From: Polytrichum commune
Lineage: Eukaryota > Streptophyta > Polytrichopsida > Polytrichales > Polytrichaceae
Reading direction: 5' to 3'
NCBI GenBank assembly: GCA_950295325.1
Contig: OX485806.1
Coordinates: 2,478,001 to 2,542,000 of the forward strand
Length of the DNA: 64,000 nucleotides
The notes beneath the pieces are model-generated. The model was given only the letters and a program-made list of their open reading frames with translations, was not told where the DNA came from and did not search any database. Position numbers and translations under genes: made by a program. Positions 10,290 through 61,829 of this stretch are shown in pieces; position 1 is the stretch's first letter, and every line of letters begins with the position of its first letter.

Positions 10290-10610
10290 ACACAAAATAT
10301 GATGTTTAGTGTTTGATACACTAAATACGAATGCATACACTAAATATCAATAACCCCGTGAAAGTAAGTGACATTAAATGTAAGCTCAAACACGAAATAC
10401 CAACTATGGTAATATGTGGAAGTTACATGTTTGAATTTAGTGTTAGTAAGGATATGAAAAAAAGGGATATAATAAGGGAGGTGGCAGTAGGGAAGGTCAC
10501 GGCACGTTTATGTCTAACACTAATTGTCAAGGAATTGAGAATTAGTGTTGAGCAGGGTAGGGTGGTTACAACACTAAATGTAATCGAACACTAAATATCA
10601 TATTTAGTGT
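10290..10610. mobile_element. CACTA-like MITE, copy M1b
   Basis: Homologous along its whole 321 bp to the element at 3094-3412, with the same inverted ends (TTTAGTGT at the right). The flanking trinucleotides are AGT and AGC, a target duplication with one mismatch. It sits inside exon 2 of ISG12-like pseudogene C, so it postdates that paralog. Confidence 0.8.
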
Positions 10611-10814
10611 AGCTGGAATGGCTTCAATGCCGATTAAAGCTGGCAACCCAAACAACGCAGTTTCAATCCCCCTCTGGTCTGCTGTGTTCCATGATCCTGC
10701 TGCAAACCCTCCGCCCCCCATGGTGCAACACAATGCAACAATTCTGATTGAAAATGTAGAAATATAACTAGGCTTTAGTAAACAAATGCAACTCCTACAT
10801 TTAGGCCCTGTATA

Positions 10815-11236
10815 AGGTAGAAATACCATAACCCGTGAAAATAAGGTGATTCGCATTGAAGATCTGGTGTGACAAACATGAGACAATTTTCCCAAGATAG
10901 ACGAGAAGGATTCATGAAGAATGCAAGTTGTTTCATATTTTTCTGCCCTATACAAAAAATGCTACAAATTTTCAAAGTGGAAAGTTGTCCAACCCTCTAC
11001 TCGTTCACTAGATTCTCCCTACACCGAACACGGTAATCCGCATTTCCATACATAACATCACCTAAACTGGTTACCTCATGAGTACATTAACACTTGGCTC
11101 CCATTGGCTACACTAAGTGTACACGCATTGAAGTTGCCGCCGAGCCATGATCGGTTTTAGAAATGGCACCTCACCATTATGATAGCGGTCTAGTGCACGG
11201 CTAGAGGGTGGTTAATGGGTTATGGTAATTCTACCT
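10815..11236. mobile_element. MITE family M2, copy a (TA target site)
   Basis: A 422-bp element with inverted ends AGGTAGAAATACCATAACCC at the left and the matching sequence GGGTTATGGTAATTCTACCT at the right. It is flanked by TA on both sides, as for Tc1/mariner-type MITEs. Copies lie at 23256-23676 and, in opposite orientation, at 42714-43134. It sits in the intron of ISG12-like pseudogene C. Confidence 0.82.
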
Positions 11237-11677
11237 TACATTGGAGCTCAAGTGGAGAGCTTCAACTTGCAGTTTTTGGGAGTCTCATGCTTCCAATTTG
11301 ACAAGCTATCATCCAAAGCTCAAACTGTTGAGAGTTTGAGTTGTTTGAGCAAGTGTACAATGGCCATACTCAAAGTGAGATATCAAAGGGGCGCATGTTA
11401 ATACCGTAGCTCTCTAGCATCTTGGGCAGAAAATAATTAATTTTGAAGGTGCTTAAATTTTTGGGAAATTAATTTCGTTGAGTGTCCAAAAAAGAAAGAA
11501 ATAACATTCAAAGAGTGCCTAAAATCACAATAATGCAAGTGACATAGTCTCTCACAAAGACCACTCAGTATAACTCTCACACAAAGCAAAACCTTGACAT
11601 ACAAGTAAAAGACAAGCTTTAGGGTAAGGAATGTTGGTTAAGGGAAGTGTTTAGGTTAGTCATAGTTGTCATAGATG

Positions 11678-11948
11678 CTCGGGGGGTTCACTCCCTCTTA
11701 TATTTTGCATACACGTGCGTTCGGGACCTATTTATTGGGGGGCTATTTACCTTGCAGAATATATTATAAGGTATGGTATTTTTCAAAATAAAGGTGTGAT
11801 GGTATTTTACATGTAATCCTTTTTCACTATTTTAAAACCCCCTATATTATATGTAAGTTTTTTACAAAACTGATCTACAATGAATATATTAGACCTTATT
11901 TTTTGTATCGCACGTTGTTCTACGATTTTCGCCAGTGAACCCCCCGAG
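11678..11948. mobile_element. hAT-type MITE with CTCGGGGGG ends (subfamily 2)
   Basis: A 271-bp element with perfect 15-bp inverted ends, CTCGGGGGGTTCACT and its complement, flanked by a perfect 8-bp direct repeat CATAGATG (11670-11677 and 11949-11956). The 8-bp duplication is the hAT signature. Its interior differs from the three longer members at 19619, 55059 and 63007, so it is a separate subfamily. Confidence 0.87.
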
Positions 11949-13029
11949 CATAGATGAAATTAGGAAAACCATTCATAGATCATAAAAATGACTTGGATGA
12001 GTGTCTAACTTATTTTAAAGTACTTTTTGAATCTGCCCAATTTTAGAATATCATTTCTGGACTGCTTAACTTACTTTTGTACTTTAACTAATTACTAGGC
12101 ATAAAGGTGCCCAAGCTGCAGGAGAGCTACGGTATACAAAGGAACAAACCAAAGAGTGCTTGAGAACTTAAGAAGCACAAAATGAGAGCTTGAACTCCCC
12201 ACATTCCTATGCACCTAACCTCTAGACTTTGACCAAGAGCTTGTCAAAAAAACACTAGAACCTTGTTAGAGAGTTCATCCTAATAACCCACTCGCACATA
12301 GCGAAAGTATGACGTTTCGGGATGTCAAGAACCCCCCGCAAGTTGGGGAGCCATCTTTTCGTGCACTCTAGTGTTGGATGATTGAGAATGTTCGATGACC
12401 GATCACGGAGTCCTATATGGTTGTCAAATAGTTCCATGACTCTCAAACAAAATAAGAGGAAAGACCAAGTTATCTTTCTCATCACAAATCCCCGGTAGTG
12501 ATTGGTGACATCTTTAGTGGTTTCTAATCTTTGTATGTAAGTCATGACTTTCTACTTAAATACTTTACCCAAATGTCGGACGTCTCAATAACTTCTTGCA
12601 TTCATAAAGCATTGTAAGCCTGGTAAAAAGTTGGAAGCTCAAGCAAAATGTGGAGTAGAGTGACCAATGATGTGTAAGAGGCTCTCGGCCAATGAGAAGG
12701 CTCCTCTCTTCAACCTCTAAAGGGGACCTAAGGCTTCAAGTATACGAGGCTCATGCATTAGCACATGTGCAAACACGTACTTCTTTCGCCTTTGTTTAGA
12801 GTTGATATATTTATGATACATGAACTAGATCAGAAAATATACACTGACCAACCACGTCTTGATAGTCATGTTGAAGGAGTAAGGTGGACTTGGAGTTGCG
12901 TCTCCATGGAATGTTCTCGATTATTGAGAAATGAGAGAAGAAGGCAAAGAGACCAGCGTAGGAAGGTGGAACACAATGCACAAGGATTGCATATAATGGA
13001 GAGAGTGATTAACTCCTCACCTTATGCCT

Positions 13030-15739: not shown

Positions 15740-17310
15740 TTACCGACAGGACTGAATTGAGAGGCTTCAGGGCGGAAGTGGCGACAGTGCCGCTTCGTGT
15801 AACAATTCAACTCTGGTTGCGCGCAGTGGCGCTTTTCGTTCCTGAGAAAGTCGCTCTATCGGTATGATTTACACTCTAGTTTTGAAGTTGATCACCTTTC
15901 GACAGCTGCTGTTCGTTGCTTTCTGGCGCTAGAGATAGCAGAGTTGCTGCACTCTGTGTCTGGCTGCAGGTATGGCAAGAAATGGAGAAAGACGCCCTAA
16001 TTCGAGGCCCTTTAATCCATTCCTATTGTGTCTGTTGAAGTCGATCCCCTTCGAGAGTTCCTTCACAGGATTTGCTGTTTGTTGCTCTGGGCGCTAGAGA
16101 TAGCAGAGTCGCTACACTGTGTGTCTGGCTCAAGGTGAAGCCGAAGTGGAGAAAGTCGCCTTAAATCGAGGACCTTCAATCCATTTCTGGCGTTCCTTGT
16201 AATATTTTCTCCAATCACGTTGCACGTGCTGAAAGACATATGTGCTTAAAAGCTAGATTCCCAACACAGTGTCGCGGATTTTTTGAGTAAGAGGCTTCTT
16301 ATTGCAAAAAGGGGGCAGAAGTGGCACGAAGATCGGCGCCTGCTTTCGGTTAGAATTGATTGCAGCGCACTTGGCTCCAGAGTGAATTGTTCTGTTGGGA
16401 TGATTCGCCTATAGTGCTGAATTGATCACCTTTGAGAGTTTCTGTCCGTTGGTTTAGGCGGTAGAGATAGCAGAGTCGCTATACTGCTTGTCTGGCTGCA
16501 GGTTCAGAAGCAAGAAGTGGAGAAAGACGCCTAAATTTAAGGCTCTTAACTTCTTTTCTGTATGTCGTGCAATACTCTTTAATCGCGTTGCATAAGTGGA
16601 AAGGCATATGTCCTGAAGCCTGAAAGGCTTGTTTTTCCTCTACAGTGTTACGAGTTTGTAAATTGAGAGGCTTCTCATTGCAAAAGGGACGCGGAAGCGG
16701 AACTTCATCTCGTTCCGGAGAGATTTATTTCGTCGGTATGATCACACTCTAGTTCTGAGATTCACCAGCTTCGTGAGGTCGTTACAAGACTTGCTGTTGG
16801 TTGCTTTTCGCGGTAGAGATCGATAGCAGAGCTACACTGTGTGTCTGACTGGTAAAGCACTAAATGGAGAAAGAAGCCTTCGACGCTCTCGAATCCATTC
16901 TTCCGTGTTTCGTAATTCTCTCCCGTCACGTTGGATGTGATGAAAGGCGTATTTAGCCGGCCCAGCCCGGTGGCTCTCCATGGCTGTAACGATTTTACTG
17001 GCCTTGGAGAAAATCTCGATCGTTGCGTCTAAGCTTGCAGAAATCCCTAGTATTGTTTGCATCAGGCACAAATAAGTGGAGTGTTCAGCATGCAGAAAAC
17101 GTTCAGGCTGATTCTAGTGAACCTTTTCGGCTAAATCTTCTTTGATCACAAGTTATGAGCAGAAGTGTCTGTCGGTCCATACAGACGAGCGGCCTAGTAC
17201 ATGCGTCTACTAAATTGATTCAGTCTTTGTCTGGCTGGTGAAACAAAGCAGTGGAGAAAGAAGCCTTACACGCTCTTGAATCCATTCTTCTGTGTCTTGT
17301 AATCTTCTCC
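15740..17310 (+). repeat. Irregular tandem array upstream of ISG12-like copy A
   Basis: A block of about five imperfect units. Each carries GAGATAGCAGAG (near 15930, 16090, 16460 and 16813), GGAGAAAG about 50 bp later (near 15983, 16149, 16518, 16866 and 17253) and, in several units, AGAGGCTTCTNATTGCAAAA. Spacing varies from about 160 to 370 bp. The same array occurs inverted at 40890-42200 upstream of copy B with very high identity. Position immediately 5' of both genes suggests promoter or leader sequence, but this is inference. A 79-codon frame on the minus strand (16832-17071) is open in both arms and probably fortuitous. Confidence 0.75.
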
Positions 17311-17530
17311 AGCTACGTGATTTAAATGAATCTTTACTACTAAGGCTTCCTATAGTCACAAATGATCAACATACACAGATGTAGCAGTAAATTGTTGATC
17401 TACTTGACCTCTAGTGCAGCATAACTCATAAGTCGGGACATCGAGTACGGTTGACGCTCGAGTGTCCTGCGCGGGTCAGCTTTGAGGTCCATGCTTGTTT
17501 CTATCTGAGATGTAGTTTGTGATGCTAACC
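17180..17530 (+). promoter_or_regulatory. Proximal upstream segment of copy A with dispersed relatives
   Basis: This stretch has the segments CTAGTACATG, GATTCAGTCTTTGTCTG, CTTGAATCCA and GTGTCCTGCG. Related copies, in the same order, occur at about 25262-25545 and 61195-61520, far from any ISG12-like exon. A function is inferred only from its place within 300-600 bp of the start codon at 17804. Confidence 0.45.
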
Positions 17531-17803: not shown

Positions 17804-19222
17804 ATGGCTACAACTGTCGCCGCGATACTAACAGCCATAGGTTTGGCAGTCAAAGCTGTCACCCCACTGGTACTAAATTATTTCGGATTCACTTCAGTAG
17901 GCCCCGCGGCCGGCTCTTTCGCAGCGGCTTGGATGGCAAGGTAATTGACATCAAACCACAGTAGACTATCAAGTATCGTTTAAATATTTTGTCATGTAGA
18001 CTGTTCTAGATTCATACTTGATTGTAAGCGTATATCATTTTCTGGTCTATTTTCGTGATTATGTCAACTCTAAACAAGAACACAAGAAGTGCATGTCATG
18101 CACCCGCGACAATGAATGAGCATCATATACGAAGCCCTTTACACTGGAGGGGTTGAAGAGAGGACCTCCTCATTGGCTGAGAGCCTCTTACACATACTTG
18201 TTCACTCAACTTCACTTTACACAGCTTACAACTTAGATGAACACCCAATCATTATCGACAAGCTTTGGGTCCAAAACCTAAGCTTCCTCAACGGAGGTTA
18301 TTTAGGAATGTGGAGAGTTCGAGCCCTTGTATTGTGGCCCCAAGCCCTCAGGCATTCTTTGGCTTGTTCCTTGTTTATTAACATTCCCCTCTTGACATAT
18401 TTCACTTTGAGCATGGCCACTTGGCACTGGCTCAAACTAGTCCAGCTCTCAATTGTTTGAACTTTGAATGAGCAAATCCAAGTACGAGATCCCAACACCG
18501 TGACACTCCCAAAAACTGCTACACTGTTTTGTCTGATTAGTGTGCGTATACTATTCGGAGTTATGTGTGGCTATAACTTTTTACTGACATTATCGGCTTT
18601 TACCAGCTAAGTTATATCATGTTCTTTGGTGTGCATTCTAATTACACTAAATGTGTTATTTAGTGTGATGGTGTTTAATGTCACTATGGTAATTGATTGG
18701 CTGACGCTTCTTATGAATAAGTGAACAGATATACTGTCATGGATGATAGATGAGTTCTTCCATTGGCCAAAACCACCACGGTTTACAATTAGTAATGAGG
18801 AAGCCAATTAGAATTGGCGACACTAAATATCATACCTAGTGCACTTGTGTTATTTGGGTAGAAAATGATACTCGGTAAAGATTTATAGCAACACGTAACT
18901 CTGAATGGTAACCCACACTAATCAGACGAGATAGTGTAGTTGGAGATATCAATTTGAGCTCTGGTGTATAGGGACCTTATTGTTGTAGCTGCAATTTGTA
19001 CTAAGTTCTTGATAATCTTCTACAATTGCAAGACACGGGTTCAAAATTGTTGCATTGTGTTGCAGTTTGGGCAGCGCAGGGGTTGCTGCGGGGTCCTTTT
19101 ATGCCGCTTGCCAGAGTGCGGCTATGGGAGGAGGTGCCCTGTTTGGGCTTCCAGTTCTTGTTGGAATTGGAGCTATCCCAGCTGCAGGATATGCATGTCT
19201 CAAGTATTTCAGGGGAGCATGA
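17804..19222 (+). CDS. ISG12 (IFI6/IFI27)-like small hydrophobic protein, copy A
   Basis: Two exons, 17804-17940 and 19066-19222, joined by a GT-AG intron (AAG/gtaatt ... ttgcag/TTTGG), give about 97 residues ending at TGA. Exon 1 has a hydrophobic segment (AAILTAIGLAVKAV) and the family motif GFTSVGPAAGSFAAAWMA. Exon 2 continues SLGSAGVAAGSFYAACQSAA, then GGGALFGLPVLVGIGAIPAA. The two Gly/Ala-rich motifs and the small size match the Ifi-6-16 (PF06140) family, whose animal members are interferon-induced membrane proteins of mitochondria or ER that influence apoptosis. Family membership is read from motifs; function in a plant is unknown. No lesion is seen. Exon 1 starts at the first in-frame ATG, and the same ATG position is conserved in copy B. 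The gene lies downstream of the tandem array and forms one arm of an inverted duplication with copy B. Confidence 0.82.
18645..18841. mobile_element. CACTA-like MITE in the copy A intron (internally deleted)
   Basis: Ends CACTAAATGTGTTATTTAGTG and CACTAAATATCATACCTAGTG enclose 197 bp. The same element, 373 bp long, sits at the equivalent intron position of copy B (39068-39440). The insertion thus predates the duplication, and copy A has lost its middle. Confidence 0.72.
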
Positions 19223-22921: not shown

Positions 22922-23255
22922 TAGTCGTCTTTATTCAAGCAATACTTCAACTACCTAACTCTGAACCCCTATATTGCCACCCAAAAGCACCGTAACCAGA
23001 TCGAAGGAAAACAATTTCTCATCATTATGAAGTCTTGATGGGAACACAGGATTTGTCGTTGTGTATCAAACACATTCACGAGCCAGCACCGCCGCTCAGT
23101 CATGCACCATGGATAGTTATCGCCAAAAGGAAGAAATGTCGTTCTTTAGAGCCTCTATAGTGTAGGGTTATTTCAGGTATTTGGAAACATACCAGGCCAA
23201 TGAACGGGGAGGACCGACCACTAGTTACAGATGAAGTGGTTGGGTGTGAGATATG

Positions 23256-24437: not shown

Positions 24438-25243
24438 GTACAACGAATACATAAAGGAATTTAAGAAATTGGAGATTTTATTTGAAATGCATGTACCTAT
24501 CTGTCTTCGCACATTCTTTTTAGGTTGTGTAAACTAGGGTGATCCATCCTTCAGTGCCATAACTTTACATTGGTAGAATTTAAGTCACTTACGACATGAG
24601 ACAAGCTATGATTGTGGGTATGGGAGGTCCCTAGTTCATATAGGTTACCTACCCTTCTTCCCGAGGCAATTAATGTTTTACCCTCTTAGTCCTTTAGAAG
24701 GCATGAGTCCGTTGTGGACTCTACTTGGTAGACTAAATCCGTAACTTTACTAACGGAAATTAAACTCTTTTTTAAAGACGGTATATGTAGGACATTCTCA
24801 ATTGTCCTAGCTTCTCCACTATCTAGTGTAATCATAACAGTCCCTCGTCCTTTAATATCATGACTTTGAGTTGTTGCCCAAGTAAACTCGATCCTTTGTT
24901 AAGTTATGGGTGTAGGACACAAACCACGCAAAGAGTGGCGTCATGTGTTGAGTTTCTCCGGAATCGAGGTACCACTTGTCACTCGATGTGTCTTCAACGC
25001 CAAGGCCACCGTAAATAATTTAGTGTTTAAAACACTAATTAGGCTTGGTGACCGGATTTCCCTTTTTCCTCTCGAAGGCGAATCCTACAATCTTCGATGT
25101 GGTGGTTGGCCTTGCCACAATGAAAACAATTTCCCTTCTTTTTTGAATGAAGGGTTTTGTTAGTAGTCACAAATTTTCTCTTCGGAAATTTCAAATTTCC
25201 CTTGAATGGTTTTTCGTTAGAGTATAAGGCTTGAGGTTTGTCC
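24438..25243 (-). mobile_element. Copia fragment in antisense (zinc knuckle and GAG-pre-integrase region)
   Basis: The minus strand matches the plus-strand Copia sequence at 29155-29660 and 63356-64000. It includes a CCHC-type zinc-knuckle stretch (about 25140-25080) and the protease-like and GAG-pre-integrase stretch below it. Stops interrupt the frame. The fragment lies head-to-head with the sense Copia copy that begins near 25.8 kb. Confidence 0.75.
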
Positions 25244-25261
25244 TCAATATCCCTCAGATGT

Positions 25262-25545
25262 GTAGCTTAGTACATGCTTCCACTATATCGATTCAGTCTT
25301 TGTCTACCTCTTTGGATGTTTGTTGCTTTTGCGCTAAATAAAGAAGACATGGAGACGCTTGAATCCACTCTTCTGTGTCATGTAATTTTCTCTAGTTATG
25401 ACCGGCTGAAATGTTGATCGATATTTTTGAGTGTAGCATATAGAGGGGAGCATAAATCGAAAGGACCTCAAGTAGGTTTCACGCTTGGGTGTCCTACGCT
25501 GGTCACCATAGAGCTTCATGCTTGTTTCTGTCTGCGATGAAGTTT
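25262..25545 (+). repeat. ISG12-upstream-like fragment, dispersed copy 1
   Basis: Related to 17180-17530 upstream of ISG12-like copy A: it shares CTTAGTACATGC, ATTCAGTCTTTGTCT, GCTTGAATCCA, GGGTGTCCTACG and CTTCATGCTTGTTTCTGTCTG in order. It ends in a short telomere-like run (TTTAGGG variants, 25553-25575). A further copy lies at 61195-61520. No exon accompanies either. Confidence 0.6.
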
Positions 25546-25845
25546 GTGAAGGGTTTAGGGTTTAGGATTTAGGATTAGAGATTGTTGTCCTTTAAGGGGC
25601 TGGTTTACATCAAGGATCATGAAGTCGTCCCATGCTCCTCTAGAAAATGTGATTGGTCGTTGAACTTGTGCCGGGTCCAGTCGGTTTAGAGTAAGGAAAC
25701 AAAATGTAAGAGTGACCATGGAATTTCTGGTTCCCAAAAGGTTTATATTTAGGCCTACATTATTCATTGTCATGGTCCAACGGGTTTAGTGCTGAGAGAG
25801 GCAAAAGAGGTTCTCGTTGCAAATGTCAAGGGACCATGACAGAGA

Positions 25846-26279
25846 AATGTCATTTAATTAATTATTATTAATTTTTTACGGTTTCCCAGCCAAATGCTAT
25901 TGTAGTTAAGAGGAACGAAGGGAAGAAGAAGGGGGAGTAAGTAAAAAAGTAAAAAAATAAATCTCAAAATTGCCCTTGTAGAAATGTAGTGTATAATATA
26001 AACTACAAATACGCATACACATACACATAAGTGCACATGTATGTGTCTATTGATACGGATGAACCCCTCAAGGGGCCAAAGGCTATGTACAAGGATTGTG
26101 ACCTTTTATGAACCAATAAAACTTGTAAAGACACATCCATCGATGTGCTATTTAAACGGATTGTTCCCTATGTAATAAAGCATTATTGATTGAAAGTTTA
26201 CCTCGTACAAGAATATCCAATTAGGTGATTAGGTTTCATTACATTATGTATTGGCAAGAGTAAAGTCTAGGATATAATA
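25846..26279 (+). mobile_element. Probable 5' LTR and leader of Copia copy 1
   Basis: The stretch ends immediately before a tRNA-Met primer binding site and contains CTATTTAAAC (TATA-like) and two AATAAA-type signals, as an LTR should. The left boundary is a guess based on a TGTCATTTAATT start. No matching 3' LTR was found downstream of 35.6 kb, so boundaries are weak. Confidence 0.4.
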
Positions 26280-26291
26280 TGGTATCAGAGC
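26280..26291 (+). other. Primer binding site, initiator tRNA-Met type (Copia copy 1)
   Basis: TGGTATCAGAGC is the standard plant Copia primer binding site, complementary to the 3' end of initiator tRNA-Met. The same site is at 62237-62248 in copy 2. Confidence 0.85.
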
Positions 26292-26371
26292 GTGATCATA
26301 AAAAAGAAAGCATGTTTATTGCAAGTTTGTGATGCTCTTGTAAAATCACTTATCCCATTTTACAAATGTAG

Positions 26372-27203
26372 AACATCATGGCATCCAAATCAATCAATTT
26401 GATGGCATGAATTTCATACATGGAAAATTGGAATGGAGATGGTGTTGTTGGACAAAGATTTGTTCAGACATGCGGATGGCTCGGAAGTACGACTAACGAC
26501 TCCAACAAATCAACCAACATGGGATAAGAAAGATAGCAAGGCGAGAGCAAACATATTGCTTGCTTTGAAAGATGTTCAACTTTCACATCTTAATAAATGC
26601 AAAACATCAAAAGAAGTTTGGGATATGCTAATGAATATATATGAAACTTCTCATGCTCAAACAAAAATGTACTACAATAAACAATTGTATACATTAAAAA
26701 TGTTGGAGGAAGATATGATAGCAAATCATGTAAACACATTCCGTACTCTGATTGATAATTTAGCAAGTACGGGAACCAATGTAAGTGATAATGATGTGCT
26801 ATTGTACTTTTGGGCTCTTTGCCCAAATCCTATGAAGGATTAGTAGTTTCCATAAGTGGTCAACCCAATTTAACACTAGAAGGTATTGTAAATCTCTTTT
26901 TATAAGAGGAAACAAAGAGAAAATCCAAAGGGCCTCAAAGCCTTATACTCTAACGAGAAATCATTCAATGGAAATTTGAAATTTCCGAAGAGGAGCTTTG
27001 TGACTATTAACAAAACCCTTCATTCAAAAAATAAGGGAAATTGTCTTCATTGTGGCAAGGCCAACCACCACATCGAGGATTGTAGGATTCGCCTTCAAGA
27101 GGAAAAAGGGAAACCCGGTCACCAAGCCTATTTAGTCTTTTAAACACTAAATTATTTACGGTGGCCTTGGCGTTGAAGACACACCGAGTGACAAGTGGTA
27201 CCT
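26372..27203 (+). pseudogene. Copia gag remnant, copy 1
   Basis: The open stretch 26433-26843 encodes a Copia Gag (UBN2-type) core with KEVWDMLMNIYETSHAQTKM, and a zinc-knuckle stretch follows near 27040-27080. The frame breaks near 26800, where the antisense copy at 60973-60767 still reads LLGPLPKSYEGL in the correct frame. Stops and a frameshift also precede 26433. The same late frameshift is present in copy 2, so both derive from one already broken ancestor. A solo LTR interrupts the element at 27204. Confidence 0.85.
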
Positions 27204-29149
27204 TGTGAGCCCAAAATGGTGCCCACATGTGTGGTTAACTTTAAACGTTATTAGGAGTTTGTCTTTTTTTATTGTGATTGCTATTTCAAAACTAAAAAGA
27301 GTGTAACCCTTGGGTTTAGTGTGTTTTTGTGTTAGCAAGTGATTTACGTCATTGGTGTGTTGAGAGGGGGTTAGCGTTAATTAGATTTAGTTAAAGTAAT
27401 GGTAGTTAGTGCTTTTGTTATTAGGAAAGAGAATGTGAGCTAGGGGGCTTAAGGCTGGGTTAGGTGCCCGAATTGGGCTTAGAGGCTGCCCACATTGGGA
27501 CCGGGGGCTGGTGGAATTGGGTTGTGGCTTGGTTAGAATCAGGGGGGGTAGGCCTTGTAATTCGGAGCAAGCTGGATTTTCGGATGGATCAGTTGCGAGG
27601 CAGCCAGGAGCGGCAACTCGCCACAGAGAGCTCTCTCTAAAAATTTTGTGCGATGGAGGAGGGGGCTGACGGCCGAAGCCCGGAGAGCTGGCTTTGTTGA
27701 AGGCCGAAGCCGAGCTGGGCTTTGAGGTCAGAGTCGCCGAACTATAGACTGAATGCTAAAAGCTCTGAGAGCTGGGTTGAAGGCCGAAGCCGAGCTGGGC
27801 TTTGAGGTCAGAGTCGCCGAACTATAGACTGAATGCTAAAAGCTCTGAGAGCTGGGTTGAAGGCCGAAGCCGAGCTGGGCTTTGAGGTCAGAGTCGCCGA
27901 ACTATAGACTGAATGCTAAAAGCTCTGAGAGCTGGGTTGAAGGCCGAAGCCGAGCTGGGCTTTGAGGTCAGAGTCGCCGAACTATAGACTGAATGCTAAA
28001 AGCTCTGAGAGCTGGGTTGAAGGCTGAAGCCGAGCTAGGCTTTGAGGTCAGAGTTGCCAAACTATAGACTGAATGCTAAAAGCTCTGAGAGCTGGCTTTG
28101 TTGAAGGCCGAAGCCGAGCTGGGCTTTGAGGTCAGAGTCGCCAAACTATAGACTGAATGCTAAAAGCTCTGAGAGCTGGCTTTGTTGAAGGCCGAAGCTG
28201 AGCTGGGCTTTGAGGTCAGAGTCGCCGAACTATAGACTGAATGCTAAAAGCTCTGAGAGCTGAGTTGAAGGCCGAAGCCGAGCTGGGCTTTGAGGTCAGA
28301 GTCGCCGAACTATAGACTGAATGCTACAAGCTCTGAGAGCTGGGTTGAAGGCTGAAGCCGAGCTAGGCTTTGAGGTCAGAGTTGCCAAACTATAGACTGA
28401 ATGCTAAAAGCTCTGAGAGCTGGCTTTGTTGAAGGCCGAAGCCGAGCTGGGCTTTGAGGTCAGAGTCGCCAAACTATAGACTGAATGCTAAAAGCTCTGA
28501 GAGCTGGCTTTGTTGAAGGCCGAAGCTGAGCTGGGCTTTGAGGTCAGAGTCGCCGAACTATAGACTGAATGCTAAAAGCTCTGAGAGCTGAGTTGAAGGC
28601 CGAAGCCAAGAGAGTTGGGTTGAAGGCCGAAGCCGAGCTGGTGACACAGAGATGGACTGGAGTCTGAGGTCCGTAGCAACTGGCCAACCGAGCAGGTGAC
28701 GGGCAATGAAGGGTCTGACTCTGAGCCCCAAACATCGTATAATGCCGGAGTCAATAGGTGCACTGAGATTAAATTAGGGGTAGGGACTAGTAGTTTTGAG
28801 ACTAAATTATGTTATAGTCTAATTAGGTAGGCTTAATATGAAGTATTTAGCTAGGGAATTAGGTTATTAAAGGGTGAAGGCCACAAGGTGTTAGAAGGTG
28901 GCATTGGGGGGTTGGACTTGTGGTTGAGTTGTGTGGGGTTGTAATAGAGTACGCTAATAGGGCCATTATAGAGAAGAGTGTTTTTCAACACTTGTAATCT
29001 TATCGTGGAATGAATTGGGGTGCCAAAAATTGATGTGAGATGCAATGGAGGTTAATGACATTGGGAAGATTTAGCTAGGTTAGCATGAATGTGATCCCCA
29101 TGCCCTCACCCGGACTACGACGCATAAAGGTGGGTGGTTTGGCCTCACA
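27204..29149 (+). mobile_element. Solo LTR, family E, copy 2, inserted in Copia
   Basis: A 1946-bp unit with ends TGTGAG and CTCACA, flanked by the perfect 5-bp duplication TACCT (27199-27203 and 29150-29154) inside Copia sequence. Removing it restores collinearity with the intact stretch at 63475-63500. It begins TGTGAGCCCAAAATGGTGCC and ends in CTCACCCGGACTACGACGCA followed by a short tail. The centre is an 80-bp tandem array that is absent from the other two copies. Confidence 0.9.
27665..28640 (+). repeat. 80-bp tandem array with higher-order structure
   Basis: About 12 units built on GAAGGCCGAAGCCGAGCTGG, TTTGAGGTCAGAGTCGCC and GACTGAATGCTAAAAGCTCT. Basic period is 80 bp; some units are 4 bp longer through GGCTTTGTTG in place of GGGTTG. 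Variant units carrying AGCTAGGC and GTTGCCAAAC recur about 330 bp apart (near 28035 and 28365), so blocks of four units were copied together. The array lies wholly inside the solo LTR. Confidence 0.92.
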
Positions 29150-29154
29150 TACCT

Positions 29155-29890
29155 TGATTCCGGAGAAGCTCAACACATGACGTCACACTTTGTGTGGTTT
29201 GTGTCCTACACCCATAACTTAACAAAGGATCGAGTTTACTTGGGCAACAACTCAAAGTCATGATATTAAAGGACGAGGGACTGTTATGATCACACTAGAT
29301 AGTGGAGAAGCTAGGACAATTGAGAATGTCCTACATATGTTGGCTTTAAAAAAAAGTTTAATTCCCGTTAGTATAGTTATGGATTTAGTCTACCAAGTAG
29401 AATCCACAACGGACTCATGCCTTGTAAAGGACTAAGAGGGTAAAACATTAATTACCTCGGGAAGAAGGGTAGGTAACCTATATTAACTAGGGACCTCCCA
29501 TACCCACAATCATAGCTTGTCTCATGTCGTAAGTGACTTAAAATTCTACCAACGTAAAGTTATGGCACTAAAGGATGGGTCACCCTAGTTTACACAACCT
29601 AAAATGAATGTACGAAGATAGATTAGTACACAAATTTCAAATAAAATCCCCAAATTTAGAAATTATTCCTTTATGTTATAGTTGTTTGAAGGGAAAACAA
29701 AGTCATAAGAAGTTTCCTAACTGGGGAAGGCGGTGAGCTATAAATGTATTAGAAATAGTTCATTCCGACATATGTGCTCACCTTCAAACATTTTCTCATG
29801 GGGGTACAAAATATTTTGTCACATTTATAGATGACTTCTCCCAAAAATGTGTGGTCACATTCTCAATGGGGGAACCTTAGAGGCCTTTAA
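29155..29890 (+). pseudogene. Copia GAG-pre-integrase and integrase start, copy 1
   Basis: Collinear with 63480-64000 and, inverted, with 24438-24990. It encodes a GAG-pre-integrase region and the first part of the integrase core, with frameshifts and stops. The integrase frame is interrupted at 29890 by the Harbinger element and resumes at 33584. Confidence 0.75.
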
Positions 29891-30411: not shown

Positions 30412-31815
30412 ATGGATAATCGAAGAAGAGAGATTTTGTGCTCTCTTATGATCTTTATGGTTTTGAAGTATTTTATCGTTTCAACTATGGCGATACAAAA
30501 AACCATCATGTATCACCATAATGCTTCAATTATGATGATGGCATATTTTTTGTAAGGGAGCAAGGAGAGGGTGGTGTGGAAATTTGACCGGCCAAGTGGA
30601 TATGTGTCACAATTTCTTCTTGGATCATATAATGCAAAAATGTTCAAAATCGTGTACGGGTGAGTAAGCCTACTTTTTTTTATTTATGTCATTTGCTTGG
30701 ACCCATGTTGAGCAAGAAATATACAAAATAAAGACTTTGTATTCAAATAGAATGTAGAATTTCTTTGACATTGCATCGATTGGCAACCGGTGATACTTTG
30801 CATACACTTGCCGATTTGTATGGTATTTCAAAGTCAAGTGCTTCAATCATAGTGAGAGAAATATGTGAGGGTATTAAAAGTGTTTTGAGGCCTTTGGTTT
30901 TTCCTAAACCAACATTGTCAAGAATGAAGCAAATAGCTTTAGAGTTTGAGAGTTTGCATGGAATTCAATATATTTTAGGGACAATAGATGAGAGTCACAT
31001 TCCAATCATAGCTCCTAGTATAGATCATGCTTCATATTATTGTAGGAAGGAATTTTATTCGGTTTTACTTCAAGGTGTAGTGAATTCTTAATGCAAATTT
31101 TGGAATTATGATTTTGGGTGGGCCGGTAGTATACATGATTGGGTCCTATTTCAAAAATCAGAAATTGGAAAGAGAACTATGAATGAAACATTTTTACCAT
31201 ATAAGCTTATTGGAGATGCTGTATATCCTATGCGCCCATGGTTCTATACACCATTCAAGGGAGAAATAACATTAGAATTTCATTCAATCAAGCACAAGAA
31301 TGGCGGTGGAGCGTGCATTTGGAATGTTAAAGGGGAGGTGGAGGATTCTACTTAAGAAGATTGACATGCCACTACGTAGCATTCCGGGTATGGTAACCGC
31401 TTGCCTTTGCCTTCACAATTTATGCCTAATTCATGCTGATGAGTTTGACATGAATTGGGCAAGAAGTGCTGAAGAAGAGTTGAAGAAAATATCTCTACAA
31501 AACTTTGGTGATTTTAGAAATGTGAATTTGTTCCATGTGTTAGAATCCGACATTAGTGAAATGAGGAACATACAAAGAGAAGTAGTACAAATAGAATTCA
31601 ATGACATTGATACAAGTGATATGGACATGACTTTTGAGCTTGAAAAAAATGTTGTTGAAACAAGAAGAGATAGAGATGAGAGGACAAAATTTTTGTTGAA
31701 TAAAACAACTGAATTTCACTTTATGCTAGTAGATATCTATTATAAAGTGCAGTTGAAGAGAAAAGCTAAGGTAGTATTTCCAGAAGATGTTAGCATGGAA
31801 AATGATGATATCTAG
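30412..31815 (+). pseudogene. Harbinger (HARBI1-like, DDE_Tnp_4) transposase, inactivated
   Basis: Exon 1 30412-30659 (GG/gtgagt) and exon 2 from 30758 fit one frame. N-terminal half: VVWKFDRPSGYVSQFLLGS, then a helix-turn-helix stretch TLADLYGISKSSASIIVREI. Catalytic motifs of the DDE nuclease: GTIDESHIP (first Asp), LIGDAVYP (second Asp) and RMAVERAFGMLKGRW (Glu). Lesions: in-frame TAA at 30553-30555, TAA at 31089-31091 where related proteins have a sense codon before CKFWNYDFG, and a one-base frameshift near 31275. The C-terminal tail after 31430 is acidic and less conserved. Each lesion alone would block a full protein. The start ATG is the first after the left end that is in frame with the domain. 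Confidence 0.9.
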
Positions 31816-35825: not shown

Positions 35826-36012
35826 ACCCCAAATTTTAGTGGAATGAATGGGAGGTGCTTGATTTCGCCCAAAAGATGGCTATTAAAATATTGAATTCCA
35901 TGGCAAAATGTTGAAGACACCTTAAATGGTGTACGCAAAGAGTTTGAGAAGGAGTTCAATTTTATATAGCCGTCTTTTGGCCAAAGTCAAATGCCTCCCC
36001 TTCATTCCACTA
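35826..36012. repeat. Palindromic segment with 55-bp arms
   Basis: The left arm AAATTTTAGTGGAATGAATG to about 35880 and its complement ending at 36012 (CATTCCACTAAAATTT) can fold into a hairpin with a loop of about 75 bp. A deleted version lies at 24355-24437. Confidence 0.75.
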
Positions 36013-37526
36013 AAATTTGGCCATGGGGACGTTAAGTATGCCCATTATGGTTTGGATTTTTACCCTGGGGATGCTAACCACACGGTGGGTTCATTTGCAA
36101 AACTCTTGCGCGATCTTGAGAAGCCACCTGCACATTCTTTCCGTGCACTTTTTGATGGTTGTGGAACCACATCCCTTTATGAGGCAGTGCTTGCGGGGAA
36201 GGAGGTTTGTATGTCGTCATTGCCAGAGCCACCCGGAGAACCCATTTGTGCAAAACCATTGCCTCCAACTCTCCACGTTCAACTTGATAATTGTGCAAAT
36301 GACAACAAATGTCGATACGCATTTTGTTTTTGGTCAATGCTCGTGGCGAAAGGAATCTTCAAAGAGGTGTTTGTGTTTTTCTTGATGGTGGGGCACACAC
36401 ACGACGACATTGATGCGTCATTCGGATGTTGGAGCATGAAGTTGCATGAGGAAGATTTTCCGACCATACCACTTCTTATGAAATCATATATGGATTTAGA
36501 CCATATGCTGGTGATCCCGCACATGATTGAGGAAGTACCAAATTTCAAGGCCTTCATCAAACCATACATGTTGAAATGAGGGGACCGATTGGTGGGACAT
36601 ACCAAAGCACAACAATTCCGATTCTATATGAAGGATGATGGTGTCCCAGCCATGCAGTTCAAGCTTTTGTGCACATCTCCTAATTGGGGCCCTGATGATG
36701 GCATACTCGTATGACGTCAAGACAAGGATGAGAAAAATGTTTGCTCCCGGATGGGGAACCAAAGCCTTGCAAACCCGACCCCATGAGAAATGGGCTGGAA
36801 ATCATCAAATGCATATCCGGATTCATTGAATATTGGAAACAATTGTGCGAGGAGGACATCACCAGACGTGTTAGAGATACCCATGAACCGTTGATCGCGT
36901 ATTGGGATCGCATTCGCTCGGCTTTGATGACACTTGGTGGCGACACCCGTACGACTTTGACACAAGGATTTTGGCCACAAAGTCGTTTGACGGTTGTCGA
37001 GTCCGACACCATGTTTTTCAGCAATGGAGACATCCGTGAAGAGTTCGCAATGGACGAGCATTACGTTGGCCCAGCGCGCAATCGGCCAGCACCATCGTTT
37101 CGTGTAGGTGTTGATTGCCACGAAGGTTATATGATCCTCGTATGAACAGGAGATGGGAAACACCCCAAGCCAATTTGGTTGGTGAAAACATTGTTTTCAC
37201 CCAATTTTGTTCGAACTAGCCCCAACTTTCGTCAAATTGAGGTGGAATATTGCCGTCCAAGCACCAAAGACCTGAACGTGTTTCGCACCTATTTAGGTTG
37301 GGACACCAAAAAGAATTTCAAGTGGACAGTGGACTCAGCTTACGGACCGGTTTGGATAAACACGGATACCATACTTTGTGCTTGGAAGCCGCGCATGGGT
37401 TCTAAATTAGAAACAATGAGCATCCCCCAAAAACATATAGATTTTGCCAAAGACAACTTGGCACGTATTGCAGCTGCGGAAAACGACGCCGAGAATGGAT
37501 ATGAAGCGGAAGATGGAGATGGGTAA
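36012..37526 (+). pseudogene. DUF7869-type (putative DDE nuclease) pseudogene
   Basis: The first frame (to 36579) encodes LHVQLDNCANDNKCRYAFCF, a LVAKGIFKEVFVFFLMVG stretch and GHTHDDIDASF. The spacing of the DN, N and GHTHxDID motifs matches DUF7869-like proteins, which I know from animals, fungi and plants and which look like an RNase H-fold nuclease; that identity is from memory of the motif. The reading stops at 36577, recovers in the same frame to about 36715, shifts by one frame before 36741, passes a TGA at 37143-37145 and continues to 37526. The gene is therefore dead. The N-terminus is missing, because the open frame upstream belongs to the palindromic segment. Confidence 0.62.
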
Positions 37527-38475: not shown

Positions 38476-38660
38476 CGAGATCCTAGTGTTTCCAAGTCCA
38501 ACCGGTTACATGTTGACATCTTTCAGTTCTTCTTTGTTGTTTTCAGGAATATTCTCTAAACTCCTCTAAAACGAAGGGAACTTTTCCTGCGATCTTAAAT
38601 TTCAATCCGTTATTTCTCAAACTCAACCAGTTCATCTGTAACTAGTGGTTGGTTCTCACT
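38476..38660. repeat. Repeat R, copy 1, overlapping the end of ISG12-like copy B
   Basis: Shares TCCAACCGGTTACATGTTGA, TTATTTCTCAAACTCAACCA and GGTTCTCNCCGTTCATTG with copies at 52139-52328 and 57069-57262, and partly with 23740-23800. The last 20 or so codons of ISG12-like copy B lie inside it. Confidence 0.75.
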
Positions 38661-40401
38661 GTTCATTGGCAGATCTAAACCTTCTAAATCTGCATCTGGC
38701 CCGGCATCTGGGTGATATTTTTTCTTGTATATCTTTACACCTATCTTTACACCAATGTATCCTACAGCTGGGATAGCTCCAATTCCAGCAAGAGCTGGAG
38801 CCCCAAGTAGGGCACCGCCCCCCATTGCCGCACTCTGGGCAGCCGCAAACCACGACCCTGCGGCAACCCCTGCGCTGCCAGTGCTGCAACACAATGCAAC
38901 AATTTTTGAACCCATGTCTTGCAAATGTAGAAGGTCCCTATACACCAGAGCTCAAATTGATATCTCCAACTACACTATTTTGTCTGATTAGTGTGGGTTA
39001 CCATCCAGAGTTACGTGTTCCTATAAATTTTTACTGAGTATCATTTTCTACCCAAATAACATAAGTGCACTAAGTATAATATTTAGTGTCACTAACTCTA
39101 ATTGTCTTGCTCACTACTACGTGTAAACCGTTGTATAGCATCACCAACACTAAATGTTAACCCAACATTATTTGCCATTCCTTGTAAAATTTTTGAGGGG
39201 ATATTAGAGTTAAAGTGTTGCAATTACTGTCACTGACCAAGTGATTTTTCATCCAAATTTCAATCATCCATGACAATATTTCATGACAAGTTGCTGGTAA
39301 GAGAAGGTAGAATTTTGGCCAATGGATGAACTCATCTATCATCCATGACAGTATATATGTTCACTTATTCATAAGAAGTGTCATCCGATCAGTTAAAATA
39401 GTGACATTAAATACCATGACACTAAATATCACATTTAGTGTAGTTAGTATGCACACCAAAGAATATGATATAACTTAGTTGGTAATAGCCGATATTAATG
39501 TCAGTAAAAAGTTATAGCCACACGTAACTCCGAATGGTATTCCCACACTAATTAGACAAAACAGTGTAGCAGTTTTTGGGAGTGTCACGGTGTTGGGATC
39601 TCGTACTTGGATTTGCTCATTCAAAGTTCAAACAATTGAGAGCGGGACTAGTTTGAGCCAGTGCCAAGTGGCCATGCTCAAAGTGAAATATGTCAAGAGG
39701 GGAATGTTAATGAACAAGGAACAAGCCAAAGAATGGCTGAGGGCTTGGGGCCACAATACAAGGGCTCGAACTCTCCACATTCCTAAATAACCTCCGTCGA
39801 GGAAGCTTAGGTTTTTGACCCAAAGCTTGTCGATAATGATTTGGTGTTCACCTTAGTTGTAAGCTGCGTAAAGTGAAGTTGAGTGAACAAGTATGTGTAA
39901 GAGGCTCTTAGCCAATGAGGAGGTTCCTCTCTTCAACCTCTCTAGCGTAAAGGGGATCTTGGGCTTCATATGTGACGCTCATTCATTGTCAAGGGTGCAT
40001 GACATGCACTTCTTGTGGTCTTGTTTAGAGTTGATATAATCATGAAATAGACCAGAAAATGATATTATACAAATATGAATCTAGAATAGTTTACGTGAAC
40101 AAAATATTTAAACGATACTAGATAGTCGACCGTGGTTTGAGGTCAATTACCTTGCCATCATGCCCGCCGCGATAGAACCAGCCGCGGGGCCTACTGCAGT
40201 AAATCCCATGGTATTCAATACGAATGGGATCGTAGCTTTCACTGCCAGCCCTGTGCCAGTTAAGATGGCAGCAGCAATTCCAGCGGTTTCAGCAGTTTCA
40301 GCAGTTCCAGCAGTTCCCGCGGTTTCAGCGGTTCCAGCAGTTCCAGCGGTTTCAGCAGTTCCAGCGGTTCCAGTGCCGGCGGTGCCGTCGGTTTCACCCA
40401 T
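38610..40401 (-). CDS. ISG12 (IFI6/IFI27)-like protein, copy B, extended N- and C-termini
   Basis: Exon 1 40401-40151 and exon 2 38883-38610 (stop TAA) with the same intron boundaries as copy A give about 174 residues. After the ATG, a Thr-Ala-Gly-Glu repeat region of about 45 residues (built on TAGTAE) precedes the conserved core: AAAILTGTGLAVKA, GFTAVGPAAGSIAAGMMA, then STGSAGVAAGSWFAAAQSAA and GGGALLGAPALAGIGAIPAV. The core matches copy A and the Ifi-6-16 family. The C-terminus has a basic stretch (KIYKKKYH), an acidic stretch and a tail, PMNSENQPLVTDELVEFEK, that lies in repeat R. The start is the ATG aligned with that of copy A (gcgacacagATG in both). The gene is the mirror arm of copy A and lies downstream of the array at 40890-42200. 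No lesion is visible; expression is unknown. Confidence 0.78.
39068..39440. mobile_element. CACTA-like MITE in the copy B intron
   Basis: A 373-bp element with ends CACTAAGTATAATATTTAGTG and CACTAAATATCACATTTAGTG. It sits at the same intron position as the shorter element at 18645-18841. Another fragment of the family lies near 43880-43995. Confidence 0.72.
40268..40390 (-). repeat. Coding minisatellite in exon 1 of copy B
   Basis: Imperfect 9- to 18-bp units of the form GCAGTTCCAGCGGTTTCA (plus strand), all multiples of three, so the minus-strand frame stays open and encodes Thr-Ala-Gly/Glu repeats. Copy A lacks this expansion entirely. Confidence 0.88.
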
Positions 40402-45238: not shown

Positions 45239-48200
45239 TTACCATGTTGCTCGTACTCCTGACCCCTGGAGGAAGAGCTGAGTGTGCCAGCCGTGTGACC
45301 TGAGCCCAGATAGCAACCCTGGAAGTTGTGTCTCTGCTTTTTCATATGCTTTCTCTAAAACAGACCCATAGATGGCTGAACTGCTTAGGTCTTCTGTGGC
45401 CTTTGCGAGCCTAGAAACATGGGCAGCTACAAGCCAACCACGCACTGCATCCTCCCCTGTTGCTTTCTGATGCAACACCATGTGGGTCTTCTCCCCAAAG
45501 TTTAACAAGAACTTCTCAGCCTGAAATCTTTGCTTCAGCTTGGTTAGAAGTGAAGGCTTGCCCACAGCCTTCTGCAAAGGGGCGCCGACTTCCACATTTC
45601 CAGCGTCCTTTTCAAGGCCAACTGGCAAAATCAAGCGTTCCCTGTAACGTAGCTCTGCTGGACTAGAGACTCTCCCAGTCTGCAGGAAGGCAAACACTGC
45701 AGATGTGAGTGGTCGACTCATGGCATGTCATAAACCCCATCATACTGACAGGCAGGCTCATGGTGTTCAATCTTCTGCAATGAGTTCCATTCTAAATACT
45801 ATAGTGGATAACATCAATCTTCTATCAATCCGCTCTGGGACTTTCCAGAAGCAAAACGATAGAATGTGGACATGGTTAGCAAATACTGAATAGACATCCT
45901 TGGTGTCTCAGGTATAGAATGTCCACTTTAAAACTCGGAGGATGAGATTTGTCCCTATCATATCTTTGAGCTAAACAGTACAATGAATTCAGAATCAAAG
46001 GGACAGACCTTGACATAGTCTGCCACCAACATTGCAGTGCGCTGAGAATTGAGTGTATTGATGGGAGCGGCTCGCATCTCCTGTACTACACTGTAAAGAT
46101 GGATGGCTGAAAGAATTGGAGCTAACACCAGCTGCCACATAAAAGCCACACACAAAATTCTCATTAATGTGCTCAGACAAGAGATAGAGCTCAACAGCAG
46201 GGCTGATTTTTCACAAAGTTTTTGCCCGTTTCTTTTCCCACACTCTATCCTCAAGGTGTTTCCATCACCCGTCATCGCCCGTCCGTCACCACCCGCATTT
46301 CCTCCACAAGAGGGGTTTTTCTAGACAAAACCTAATCAGAAGTCATCTACGTGCTATTTTGGAGTTAGAGACTTTAGATGCTTTGATGCGCATTTCATGT
46401 GCAAATATTTCAGTTGAAAACATCAATTGGAATGTAGTGATGCTTGTTTGGAGAAACATGAAGGATAGGAGAATTCATCCACTTCTTTGACGGGTGAGTA
46501 GCTCTTTATTTTTAAAATTTTGAACATGTTTGTATATACTAATTCTTATTCAATTGCTAAATTTACCTTCAATTAAAATCTTTGACATTATGTTAAAAAG
46601 GTTCTAAATTTTGTGGTTGATGAATTAATGTATGCAAGTGAATCAAGCACTTCAAGATGGATATTTTGATTGGGTATTAGTGGTTTGATTGCATTATGCT
46701 TACATTCACATGTCATATATGACATAACGTAACTAATATTTGTACCATTTATTTTTTTGGAAAAAAATTATCAAAAAAATTGTTATTTTTAGAACCCGTC
46801 CAAAGTGAATTTGGCACATCCAAAAAGCGGTTCATTTTCTAAGAATCCGTCCACTGGAAAGGTTTTTTTTTATGAACATGTCCCTGGACATATTGGGGAC
46901 CTTGTGAAAAATCACCTCTGCTCAACAGTCACTTCAAGGAAGTCTTAGCAAAAAAATTTACTAATCAGCTGCGGAGGTTGATTATATCATGAGGAACATA
47001 TTGATAGGCACACCTTTCCCTGAATAGATGCACCAAAGTTTGATGCCAAGTGGATCCCAACACCGAGACCCAGCACATTGGAAAGTGTGGAACTTGCTTC
47101 CCCCTTTGCATAAAGATCACTCAGGTTGCCTTCTTTTGCAAAAGACGATTAGACTGGGAGCCGAGTTGCCTTCGCTGAAACTAGTGCCATGCCCTGCACA
47201 GTTGAAATGGGTACAGCAGACACACACACAATGAGTATATTTATCTGTATTTGATGATGAGAACAGCCACTATAGAACACTTCATCAGGACAACAACCAA
47301 CTTCAAGAGCATCATCACGGACTACCAAGTAAGAATACCTTTGCAAGATTTGCCATGCCTGCAACAGGAAGGAAATGCTGGGGGCACAACGGTGATGCGA
47401 CCTCTAGCCCTGCTCCAATATCATACATCACATCCGCTGTTTGCAAAATGAACCCAAACAACATATTAGTTTTACAACTTTGCAGATGTGAAGCCAATAC
47501 TTGCATCCTCTAGGAATCAGCCTGTGATTAAAGTACATTGACCATATCTTACCTAGTCTATAATTGTGTCACTCGTTACAATGTAATTAAACGAGTATCT
47601 GTTAAGAAGCCCAGAACGGCTTTTCACAAGGCATTTTCAAAACTGTATTAAAGACCCACCAAAAATGCGCCACCTCTTTGGCTCGGAGTCTATCCGTGCG
47701 CCCATGCTGCTACACACCAGTTTTCCAATGTGCTGCATCCCATCCTTTAAGACCTGCCCGTCCAGAGAAGAGCGTCAAAACTTGGACACATTTTAGCATA
47801 GAAAAATGAATTACTTTCAAGTCACCATGCTTAACAAAGTCCAGTTTAGAATGTAGACAGACAATGTGGAACATCCATGCCATACTCTTTCAGGAACATT
47901 ATGGTGTATGACGGAAGTGATTCTGGTCCTTTTGCAACTTTTGTTCCGGGACACTACAGACACAAGTTCCTTGTGAATCCCTGCCAAGCAGATGATGCGA
48001 ATGCATTACTCACCCAGCTCACAATTGTTGCCTGTGCAGGAGTGGGCCTAAAACCTGCAGCAAACAGTAAAGACTGTTTTCCAATCACACCCAAGTCCAC
48101 TTCAATCAGTGGAATGACAACAGAAAACTATTAGCTACTCACAGTAAAATGGCGGCCAGAAGGCACTAAAAATAATGGTCTCCTTTTGCCTAACTAGCAT

Positions 48201-52138: not shown

Positions 52139-52328
52139 AGATCCTAGTGATTCTAAATCCAACCGGTTACATGTTGACATCTTCCGGTTTTGCTTTCATT
52201 CATTTGAGGTATATTCTTGTATAGATTCCTCTAAAATGATCGGTGATTCTCCTAAAGTCCCAAACTTCAACCGGTTATTTCTCAAACTCAACCAGTTCAT
52301 TTATAACTAACCGCCAGTTCTCCCCGAG
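52139..52328. repeat. Repeat R, copy 2
   Basis: About 190 bp homologous to 38476-38660 and 57069-57262, including TCCAACCGGTTACATGTTGA and TTATTTCTCAAACTCAACCA. No ISG12-like core is attached. Confidence 0.75.
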
Positions 52329-57068: not shown

Positions 57069-57262
57069 AATCCTAGTGTTTCCAAATCCAACCGGTTACA
57101 TGTTGACATCTTTTGATTTTTGGTTATTAAATTGAGGTATATTCTATAAATTCCTCTGCAATGATCGGTGATTTTCCGAAGGTGTTGAATTTCAACCAGT
57201 TCTTTCTCAAACTCAACTGGTTCTCCTTGAACTAGCAGCTGGTTCTCCCCGTTCATTGTCAG
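57069..57262. repeat. Repeat R, copy 3
   Basis: Homologous to 38476-38660 and 52139-52328. On the minus strand it encodes NGENQLLVQGEPVEFEKE, resembling the tail of ISG12-like copy B, but no ISG12-like core is nearby. Confidence 0.75.
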
Positions 57263-60296: not shown

Positions 60297-61140
60297 TTCT
60301 CCACTATCTAGTGTAATCATAACAGTCCCTCGTCCTTTAATATTATGACTTTGAGTTGTCCCCCAAGTAAACTCGATCCTTTTTTAGGTTCTTGGTGTAG
60401 GACACAAACCACTCAAAGCGTGGCGTCATGTGTTGAGTTGCTCCGGAATCGAGGTACCACTTGTCACTCGATATGTCTTCAACACCAAGGCCACCGTAAA
60501 TATTTAGTGTTTAAAACACTAAATAGGCTTGGTGACCAAATTTCCCTTTTTCCTCTGGAAGGCGAATCCTACAATCTTCAACGTGGTGGTTGGCCTTGCC
60601 ACAATGAAAACAATTTCCCTTCTTTTTTTGAATGAAGGGTTTTGTTAGTAGTCGCAAATTTCCTCTTCGGAAATTTCAAATTTCCCTTGAATGGTTTTTT
60701 GTTAGAGTATAAGGCTTGAGGTTTGTCCTCAATACCCCTCCCTTTGGATTTTCTCTTTCTTTCCTCTTATAAATAGAGACTTGTAATGCCTTCTAGTGTT
60801 AAATTGGGTTGACCACTTATGGAAATTACTAATCCTTCATAGGATTTGGGCAAAGGGCCCAAAAGTACAATAGCACTATCATTATCACTTATATTGGTTC
60901 CCGTATTTGCTAAATTATCAATTAGAGTACAGAATGTGTTTACATGATTTGCTATCGTATCTTCCTTCGACATTTTTTATGTATACAATTGTCTATTATA
61001 GTACATTTTTGTTTGAGCATGAGAAGTTTCATATATATATATATATATATATTCATTAGCATATCCCAAACTTCTTTTGATGTTTTGCATTTATGAACAT
61101 GTGAAAGTTGAGCATCTTTCAAAGCAAATAATATGCTTGA
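60297..61140 (-). mobile_element. Copia fragment in antisense (gag, zinc knuckle, pre-integrase start)
   Basis: Minus-strand homologue of the Copia family at 26-36 kb. The stretch 60973-60767 keeps the correct Gag frame (LLGPLPKSYEGL) that both sense copies have lost. A zinc-knuckle stretch follows near 60610-60560, and the GAG-pre-integrase start lies at 60450-60300. A (TA)n tract lies at 61027-61051. It mirrors the antisense fragment at 24438-25243. Confidence 0.78.
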
Positions 61141-61194
61141 ATGGTTTTTCGTTAGAGTATAAGGCTTGAGGTTTGTCCTCTATATCCCTCAGAT

Positions 61195-61520
61195 GTGTAG
61201 CTTAGTACATGCTTCCACTATATTGATTCAGTCTTTGTCTGTCTCTTTGGCTTTCGCGCTAGAGAGAGCAGAGCTACACTATGTGGCTAGCTGGTGAATC
61301 AAGAAGTAAATACAGAAGCCATGAGGCGCTTGAATCTACTCTTTTGTATCGTGTAATTTTCTCTAGTTACGACCGGCTGAAATGTTGATTGATATTTTTG
61401 AGTGTAGCATATATAGGGGAGCATAAATTGAACGGACCTCGAGGAGGTTTCACGCTTGGGTGTCCTACGCTGGTCACCATAGAGCTTCATGCTTGTTTAT
61501 GTCTGCGATGAAGTTTGTGT
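61195..61520 (+). repeat. ISG12-upstream-like fragment, dispersed copy 2
   Basis: Homologous to 17180-17530 and 25262-25545. It also retains CGCTAGAGAGAGCAGAGCTACACTATGTG, cut here into GCTAGAGAGAGCAGAGC and CTACACTATGTG, which matches units of the arrays at 15740-17310 and 40890-42200. Confidence 0.62.
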
Positions 61521-61829
61521 AGGGTTTAGGGTTTAGGATTCGAGATTGTTGTCCTTTAAGGGGTTGGTTTACATCAAGGACCATGAAGTCGTCCTATGCT
61601 CCTCTAGAAAATGTGATTGGTCGTTGAACTTGTCCTGGGACCAGTCGGTTTAGAGTAAGGAAACAAAATGTAAGAGTGACCATAGAACTTCATGTCCCCA
61701 AAAGGTTTATATTTAGGCCTACATTATCCATTGTCATGGTCCAACGGGTTTAGTGGTGAGAAAGGCAAAAGAGGTTCTCGTTACAAATGTCAAAGGACCA
61801 TAACAGAGAAATGTCATTTTATTAATTAT

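Follow-up and report, generated by a model that had tools for sequence, protein, structure and literature searches.

Copy A and its host genome

The window, that is, the whole stretch of 64,000 nucleotides that was analysed, carries a two-exon gene, here called copy A, with the following features at and around it:

15753..17460 (+): upstream block common to copies A, B and C, about 98% identical
17804..17940 (+): exon 1 of copy A, from the start codon to an AG/GT donor; part of the PF06140 match of the spliced product
17941..19065 (+): intron of copy A, with GT...TTGCAG ends (GT-AG)
18518..18945 (+): dispersed repeat in the intron, with inverted ends and many copies on contigs C1-C7; boundaries approximate
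19066..19222 (+): exon 2 of copy A, with the stop TGA at 19220-19222

The original prediction had placed here an intact IFI6/IFI27-like gene of a plant genome, and its coordinates, frames and motifs for copy A were all recovered. The gene starts with ATG at 17804 (+), its exon 1 donor lies in the context GCAAG/GTAATT, and without splicing the exon 1 frame runs into a TAA at 17942-17944. Splicing of copy A is predicted from splice signals present in three copies and yields a product of 97 aa. The PF06140 profile, proposed as a check with a missing match named as refuting, matches this product with E 2.1e-11 and 44 bits at a cut-off of 29.1, and two paralogs, copies B (E 4.1e-11, 43.1 bits) and C (E 3.1e-11, 43.5 bits), pass the same cut-off. 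These matches are far past chance, and membership of copy A in the Ifi-6-16 family (PF06140) is well supported by its sequence.

The host genome is most likely that of a moss, since its PsaB is nearest to chains of Physcomitrium. Contig C8 carries plastid psaA and psaB, of which two short fragments also occur on C4 and C5; the closest PDB chains to PsaB are 8htu (1704.6 bits), 6l35 (1702.4 bits) and 7ksq (1700.6 bits), followed by 9lut (1667.2 bits) and 7wfd (1630.2 bits), where we take 6l35 and 7ksq to be Physcomitrium photosystem I and 7wfd to be from Arabidopsis. The furthest matches on C1 to C7 lie between 36.8 Mb (C5) and 70 Mb (C1), in keeping with seven chromosomes; n = 7 is typical of Polytrichales, an assignment to which would be a guess. 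Because a dispersed host repeat lies inside its intron, copy A is regarded as resident; with the gene on a contig of 59.1 Mb, contamination is ruled out. The introns of B and C carry one such repeat at the same place. The repeat, represented by 113 matching pieces from the 40 scored of 3,327 candidate places, is MITE-like, 'MITE' being our own label. A scan of the window with Rfam gave no matches.

Elsewhere in the window, transposon remains (Copia gag, PF14223; DDE_Tnp_4 transposase; DUF7869) occur at 26403-26840 (+), 31276-31812 (+) and 35926-36576 (+). An open frame at 45242-45727 (-) matches the Root UVB sensitive C-terminal domain (PF24160, E 5.1e-8). The stretches 24466-29542 and 60297-63999 are related and repeat-rich, with pieces 92-97% alike, and one of them contains 80-base tandem repeats at 27611-28558.

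Paralogs, distant relatives and origin

Judged by sequence, copy A is one of three intact paralogs, which form a small local set of two-exon genes on one moss chromosome. These and the other members of the family found in the genome are:

40401-38610 (-): copy B, whole gene, 174 aa, intact, inside the window
40151..40401 (-): copy B exon 1
38610..38883 (-): copy B exon 2 with stop; C-terminal tail longer than in A and C
C4:2561500-2559934 (-): copy C, 100 aa, intact, 18-20 kb outside the window
10608..12838 (-): relic D, a damaged exon 2 (10724-10608) with intron pieces
C4, 383.5 kb and 398.4 kb: L001 (L001:1354-2142) and L002, an inverted pair about 15 kb apart, single-exon Ifi-6-16

The exon boundary that had been reported as conserved in three paralogs is indeed shared by all three intact copies, of which only A and B lie inside the window. 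In exon 1 of copy B a 9/27-base tandem repeat at 40272-40373 codes for a GTAETA-rich N terminus; human IFI6 also contains a minisatellite. At the acceptor position relic D reads TTGCAC instead of TTGCAG, and a search for its exon 1 found none. Short stretches that resemble the C-terminal end of copy B, and may be left over from additional dead copies, occur in the window at 23197-23250 (E 0.001), 52278-52322 (E 0.03) and 57203-57262 (E 8e-4).

The genome (407.8 Mb in 64 contigs) was searched with PF06140, copy C and the L001 protein, which gave five matches, nine matches up to E 10 and four matches up to E 10, respectively; exons are scored singly in these searches, so that more diverged members may escape. 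The nine matches of copy C are both exons of the three intact genes, L001, L002 and one relic. The only other kind of member thus found is the diverged pair L001/L002, on the same contig as A-C and 33-38% identical to them. L001 passes the PF06140 cut-off with 57.3 bits, as A-C also do, but the pair holds the domain within one exon, whereas in A-C it extends over two, and it differs further by a longer linker (SSIAIANGVG) and a 34-aa C-terminal unit, present three times in L001 (IFARRDAMAAWFEAG...) and once in L002.

A profile built from A, B and C finds human IFI27L1 (PDB 2loq) with E 0.0041; copy C alone reaches it at E 0.47 only, in an alignment where 29 of 70 residues are identical. IFI27L1, with IFI27 and IFI6 (ISG12/FAM14; PF06140), resembles the moss copies in its length of about 100 aa and in the MGFT, SIAA.MM, GVAAGS and QS stretches. 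Compared with 2loq, the spacing from MM to GVAAGS is three residues shorter in A-C, a gap that falls at the splice junction; L001, unlike A-C, keeps the longer linker between these regions. To our knowledge, plants have no interferon system.

Outside vertebrates, the Ifi-6-16 domain is also described for shrimp LvIFI6-16, which is reported to have a transmembrane region, a predicted signal peptide and an antiviral, apoptosis-linked role, the last two with nothing comparable known for the moss copies (PMC9144789). A fungal protein is likewise annotated with PF06140 (PMC10051545); the domain is thus not confined to animals, and its presence in a plant alone implies no immune role. The PF06140 profile matched none of 14 control genomes, and no bacterial, phage or viral relatives were detected in genome contigs, viral contigs and phages with patterns that are moss-derived and may let distant relatives escape. 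By title, neither the papers in a partial literature library that name the family nor the best-ranked matches there for family names with plant or moss terms include one on a plant's own Ifi-6-16 gene; plant PF06140 entries may well exist in InterPro, and it is not claimed that plant members are unreported.

An old horizontal transfer into mosses, for example from fungi, is rather unlikely as the origin of these genes. Fungi do have the domain (PMC10051545), and mosses are reported to receive fungal genes (PMC7181705, PMC12454661), but the word 'interferon' is absent from the main text of the three moss or liverwort gene-transfer papers searched for it. Any transfer would not be recent, since the intron is filled with host repeats.

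Divergence of exons and noncoding DNA

What is new here is the contrast in divergence between the exons and the noncoding DNA of A, B and C, obtained by aligning the three loci globally (differences per site):

upstream (1.35 kb): A-B 0.022, A-C 0.015, B-C 0.022
exon 1: A-B 0.285, A-C 0.263, B-C 0.123
intron: A-B 0.070, A-C 0.068, B-C 0.046
exon 2: A-B 0.293, A-C 0.217, B-C 0.115
3' flank: A-C 0.101; copy B not alignable

Flanks near the exons are intermediate (5' leader A-B 0.088), and over aligned pieces the intron of A is 91% identical to those of B and C. The upstream block includes fragments of dispersed repeats. Of its 1661 searched bases, all are common to A and C, and the match in B covers 1382; other genome matches, among the 40 of 97 candidates that were scored, do not exceed about 230 bases.

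The contrast extends to silent positions. Fourfold sites, counted in codons with a conserved amino acid, differ at 16/48 (A-B), 17/50 (A-C) and 7/60 (B-C), as compared with 75/1076, 73/1073 and 58/1264 intron sites (Fisher P 2.5e-7, 6.0e-8 and 0.024). The repeat within the intron, which has copies on C1-C7 and should be neutral, differs at 41/428, 41/425 and 34/604 sites, so that exonic fourfold sites of A look about 3.5 times as diverged. Constraint on the intron is unlikely as the cause of its likeness, because the repeat, too, is just 9.6% diverged for A. CpG decay is ruled out as the cause of the exon differences: 7 of the 85 between A and B are CpG transitions and 42 are transversions.

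Estimates of dN/dS depend on the method:

NG86: A-B 0.43, A-C 0.44, B-C 0.60
LWL85: A-B 0.22, A-C 0.48, B-C 0.50
ML: A-B 0.68, A-C 0.76, B-C 0.99
YN00: A-B 1.22, A-C 1.39, B-C 1.75

YN00 thus stands against the other three, all below 1. Compared with simulated neutral change, in which stop-free outcomes were kept under several settings, synonymous differences between A and either other copy are more numerous than expected (P 0.0007-0.0093 across settings), but the surplus for B-C is not significant (P 0.10-0.15). Neutral substitution between A and B, part of what the original prediction had named as speaking against it, was not seen, as this pair is shifted to a synonymous excess (P 0.0007-0.0040). 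The open frame survives 73 random changes in 11-15% of mutants, by itself weak evidence of constraint. We read these data as weak to moderate purifying selection.

Positive selection, with the exons diversifying as in immune or venom genes and amino-acid change outpacing the intron as a neutral clock, is quite unlikely. It would account for a dN (A-B and A-C 0.23-0.41, B-C 0.12-0.18) above intron divergence (0.05-0.07) and for the YN00 values, but synonymous sites are equally old, with 33-34% of fourfold sites in conserved codons differing for A, and it is therefore not favoured as a straightforward account of rapid exon change; dN/dS below 1 by NG86, LWL85 and ML and the synonymous excess of copy A over neutrality also speak against it. 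That the copies are functionless duplicates in decay we consider improbable as well: relic D, the short pieces of the copy B tail at three other places and the lack of known expression of the copies would fit, but all three copies are open with intact splice signals, their profile scores lie past the PF06140 cut-off, and A shows the synonymous excess.

The history of the noncoding DNA is not uniform. Upstream, the odd copy out is A at 10 sites, B at 20 and C at 10, whereas in the intron the counts are 52, 18 and 17 (P 0.0005). As both regions are noncoding, a different odd copy means that they do not share one genealogy, and this favours recombination or conversion. Differences between B and C are clustered, with 17 in one 60-column block, a number that none of 2000 permutations attained. 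Against this reading, the odd copy is no different in the exons from that in the intron (P 0.12), and a higher exon rate would give the same. Relic D, used as a clock, does not discriminate: A-B differ at 25/123 and A-D at 46/123 sites of exon 2, against 12/192 and 43/192 in the intron (exon 2 vs intron P 0.12, not significant), where the intron pieces were chosen by local alignment, which favours conserved ones.

Old, constrained exons within noncoding DNA that was homogenised by conversion fit these observations best; as the cause of the contrast, conversion sparing the exons is the account that we prefer, although it is not proven. Alternatively, the exons of A might have come from an older, unsampled paralog by two replacements, with its own upstream DNA and intron kept, to which we assign only a small probability. 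Of 93 variable aligned exon sites, 59 (29+30) have A as the odd copy, and blocks with at least 12 differences per 60 columns begin mainly at exons, as expected from such replacement. It requires, however, two separate events, each bounded by coding sequence; the searches with PF06140, copy C and the L001 protein found no donor in the genome; and B-C, too, has more exon than intron change (7/60 fourfold vs 58/1264 intron sites, P 0.024). With their old exons and young introns, the three linked loci lend themselves to the study of conversion that leaves coding sequence untouched.

Protein features and possible role

The proteins of the two-exon genes are tiny and predicted to be hydrophobic. By hydropathy, apolar stretches of copy A cover residues 1-23 and 64-91, and K17, K92 and R95 are the only charged residues. 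Separate models of single exons (A exon 2, B exon 1) are helical except for the repeat tail of B, at low confidence (pLDDT 62.8 and 58.0).

Copy A is best explained as a real and probably functional nuclear Ifi-6-16 (PF06140, ISG12/FAM14) gene of a moss. Its product would be a very small helical protein, rich in Gly and Ala, which may insert into an intracellular membrane; the animal relatives suggest that of the mitochondrion or the ER. There it would most likely change the state of the membrane during stress or cell death, with no interferon involved. Insertion, organelle and role are proposed from reports on animal IFI6 and IFI27 and on shrimp IFI6-16. Animal IFI6 is reported to be located on ER membranes and to hinder flavivirus replication organelles there (PMC8228428), and for animal IFI27 both a nuclear-envelope and a cytoplasmic location are reported (PMC7575815). 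Copies A, B and C would have arisen by local duplication, with exons that are old and constrained and with ectopic conversion or recombination maintaining the likeness of upstream DNA and introns. Taken as a whole, this account of a functional moss Ifi-6-16 gene for a membrane protein, with local paralogs and exon-sparing conversion, is on balance the one we favour, with modest confidence.

With a PF06140 gene in a moss, the action of the family without interferon can be addressed in a haploid plant. It is conceivable, but distinctly improbable, that plant IFI27-like proteins are conflict-driven effectors at organelle membranes, with exons kept diverse and with upstream DNA and intron evened out by conversion; if true, an interferon-free defence role of the Ifi-6-16 family would be older than animals. 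Introns homogenised by conversion beside diverse exons are a pattern known from HLA class I genes.
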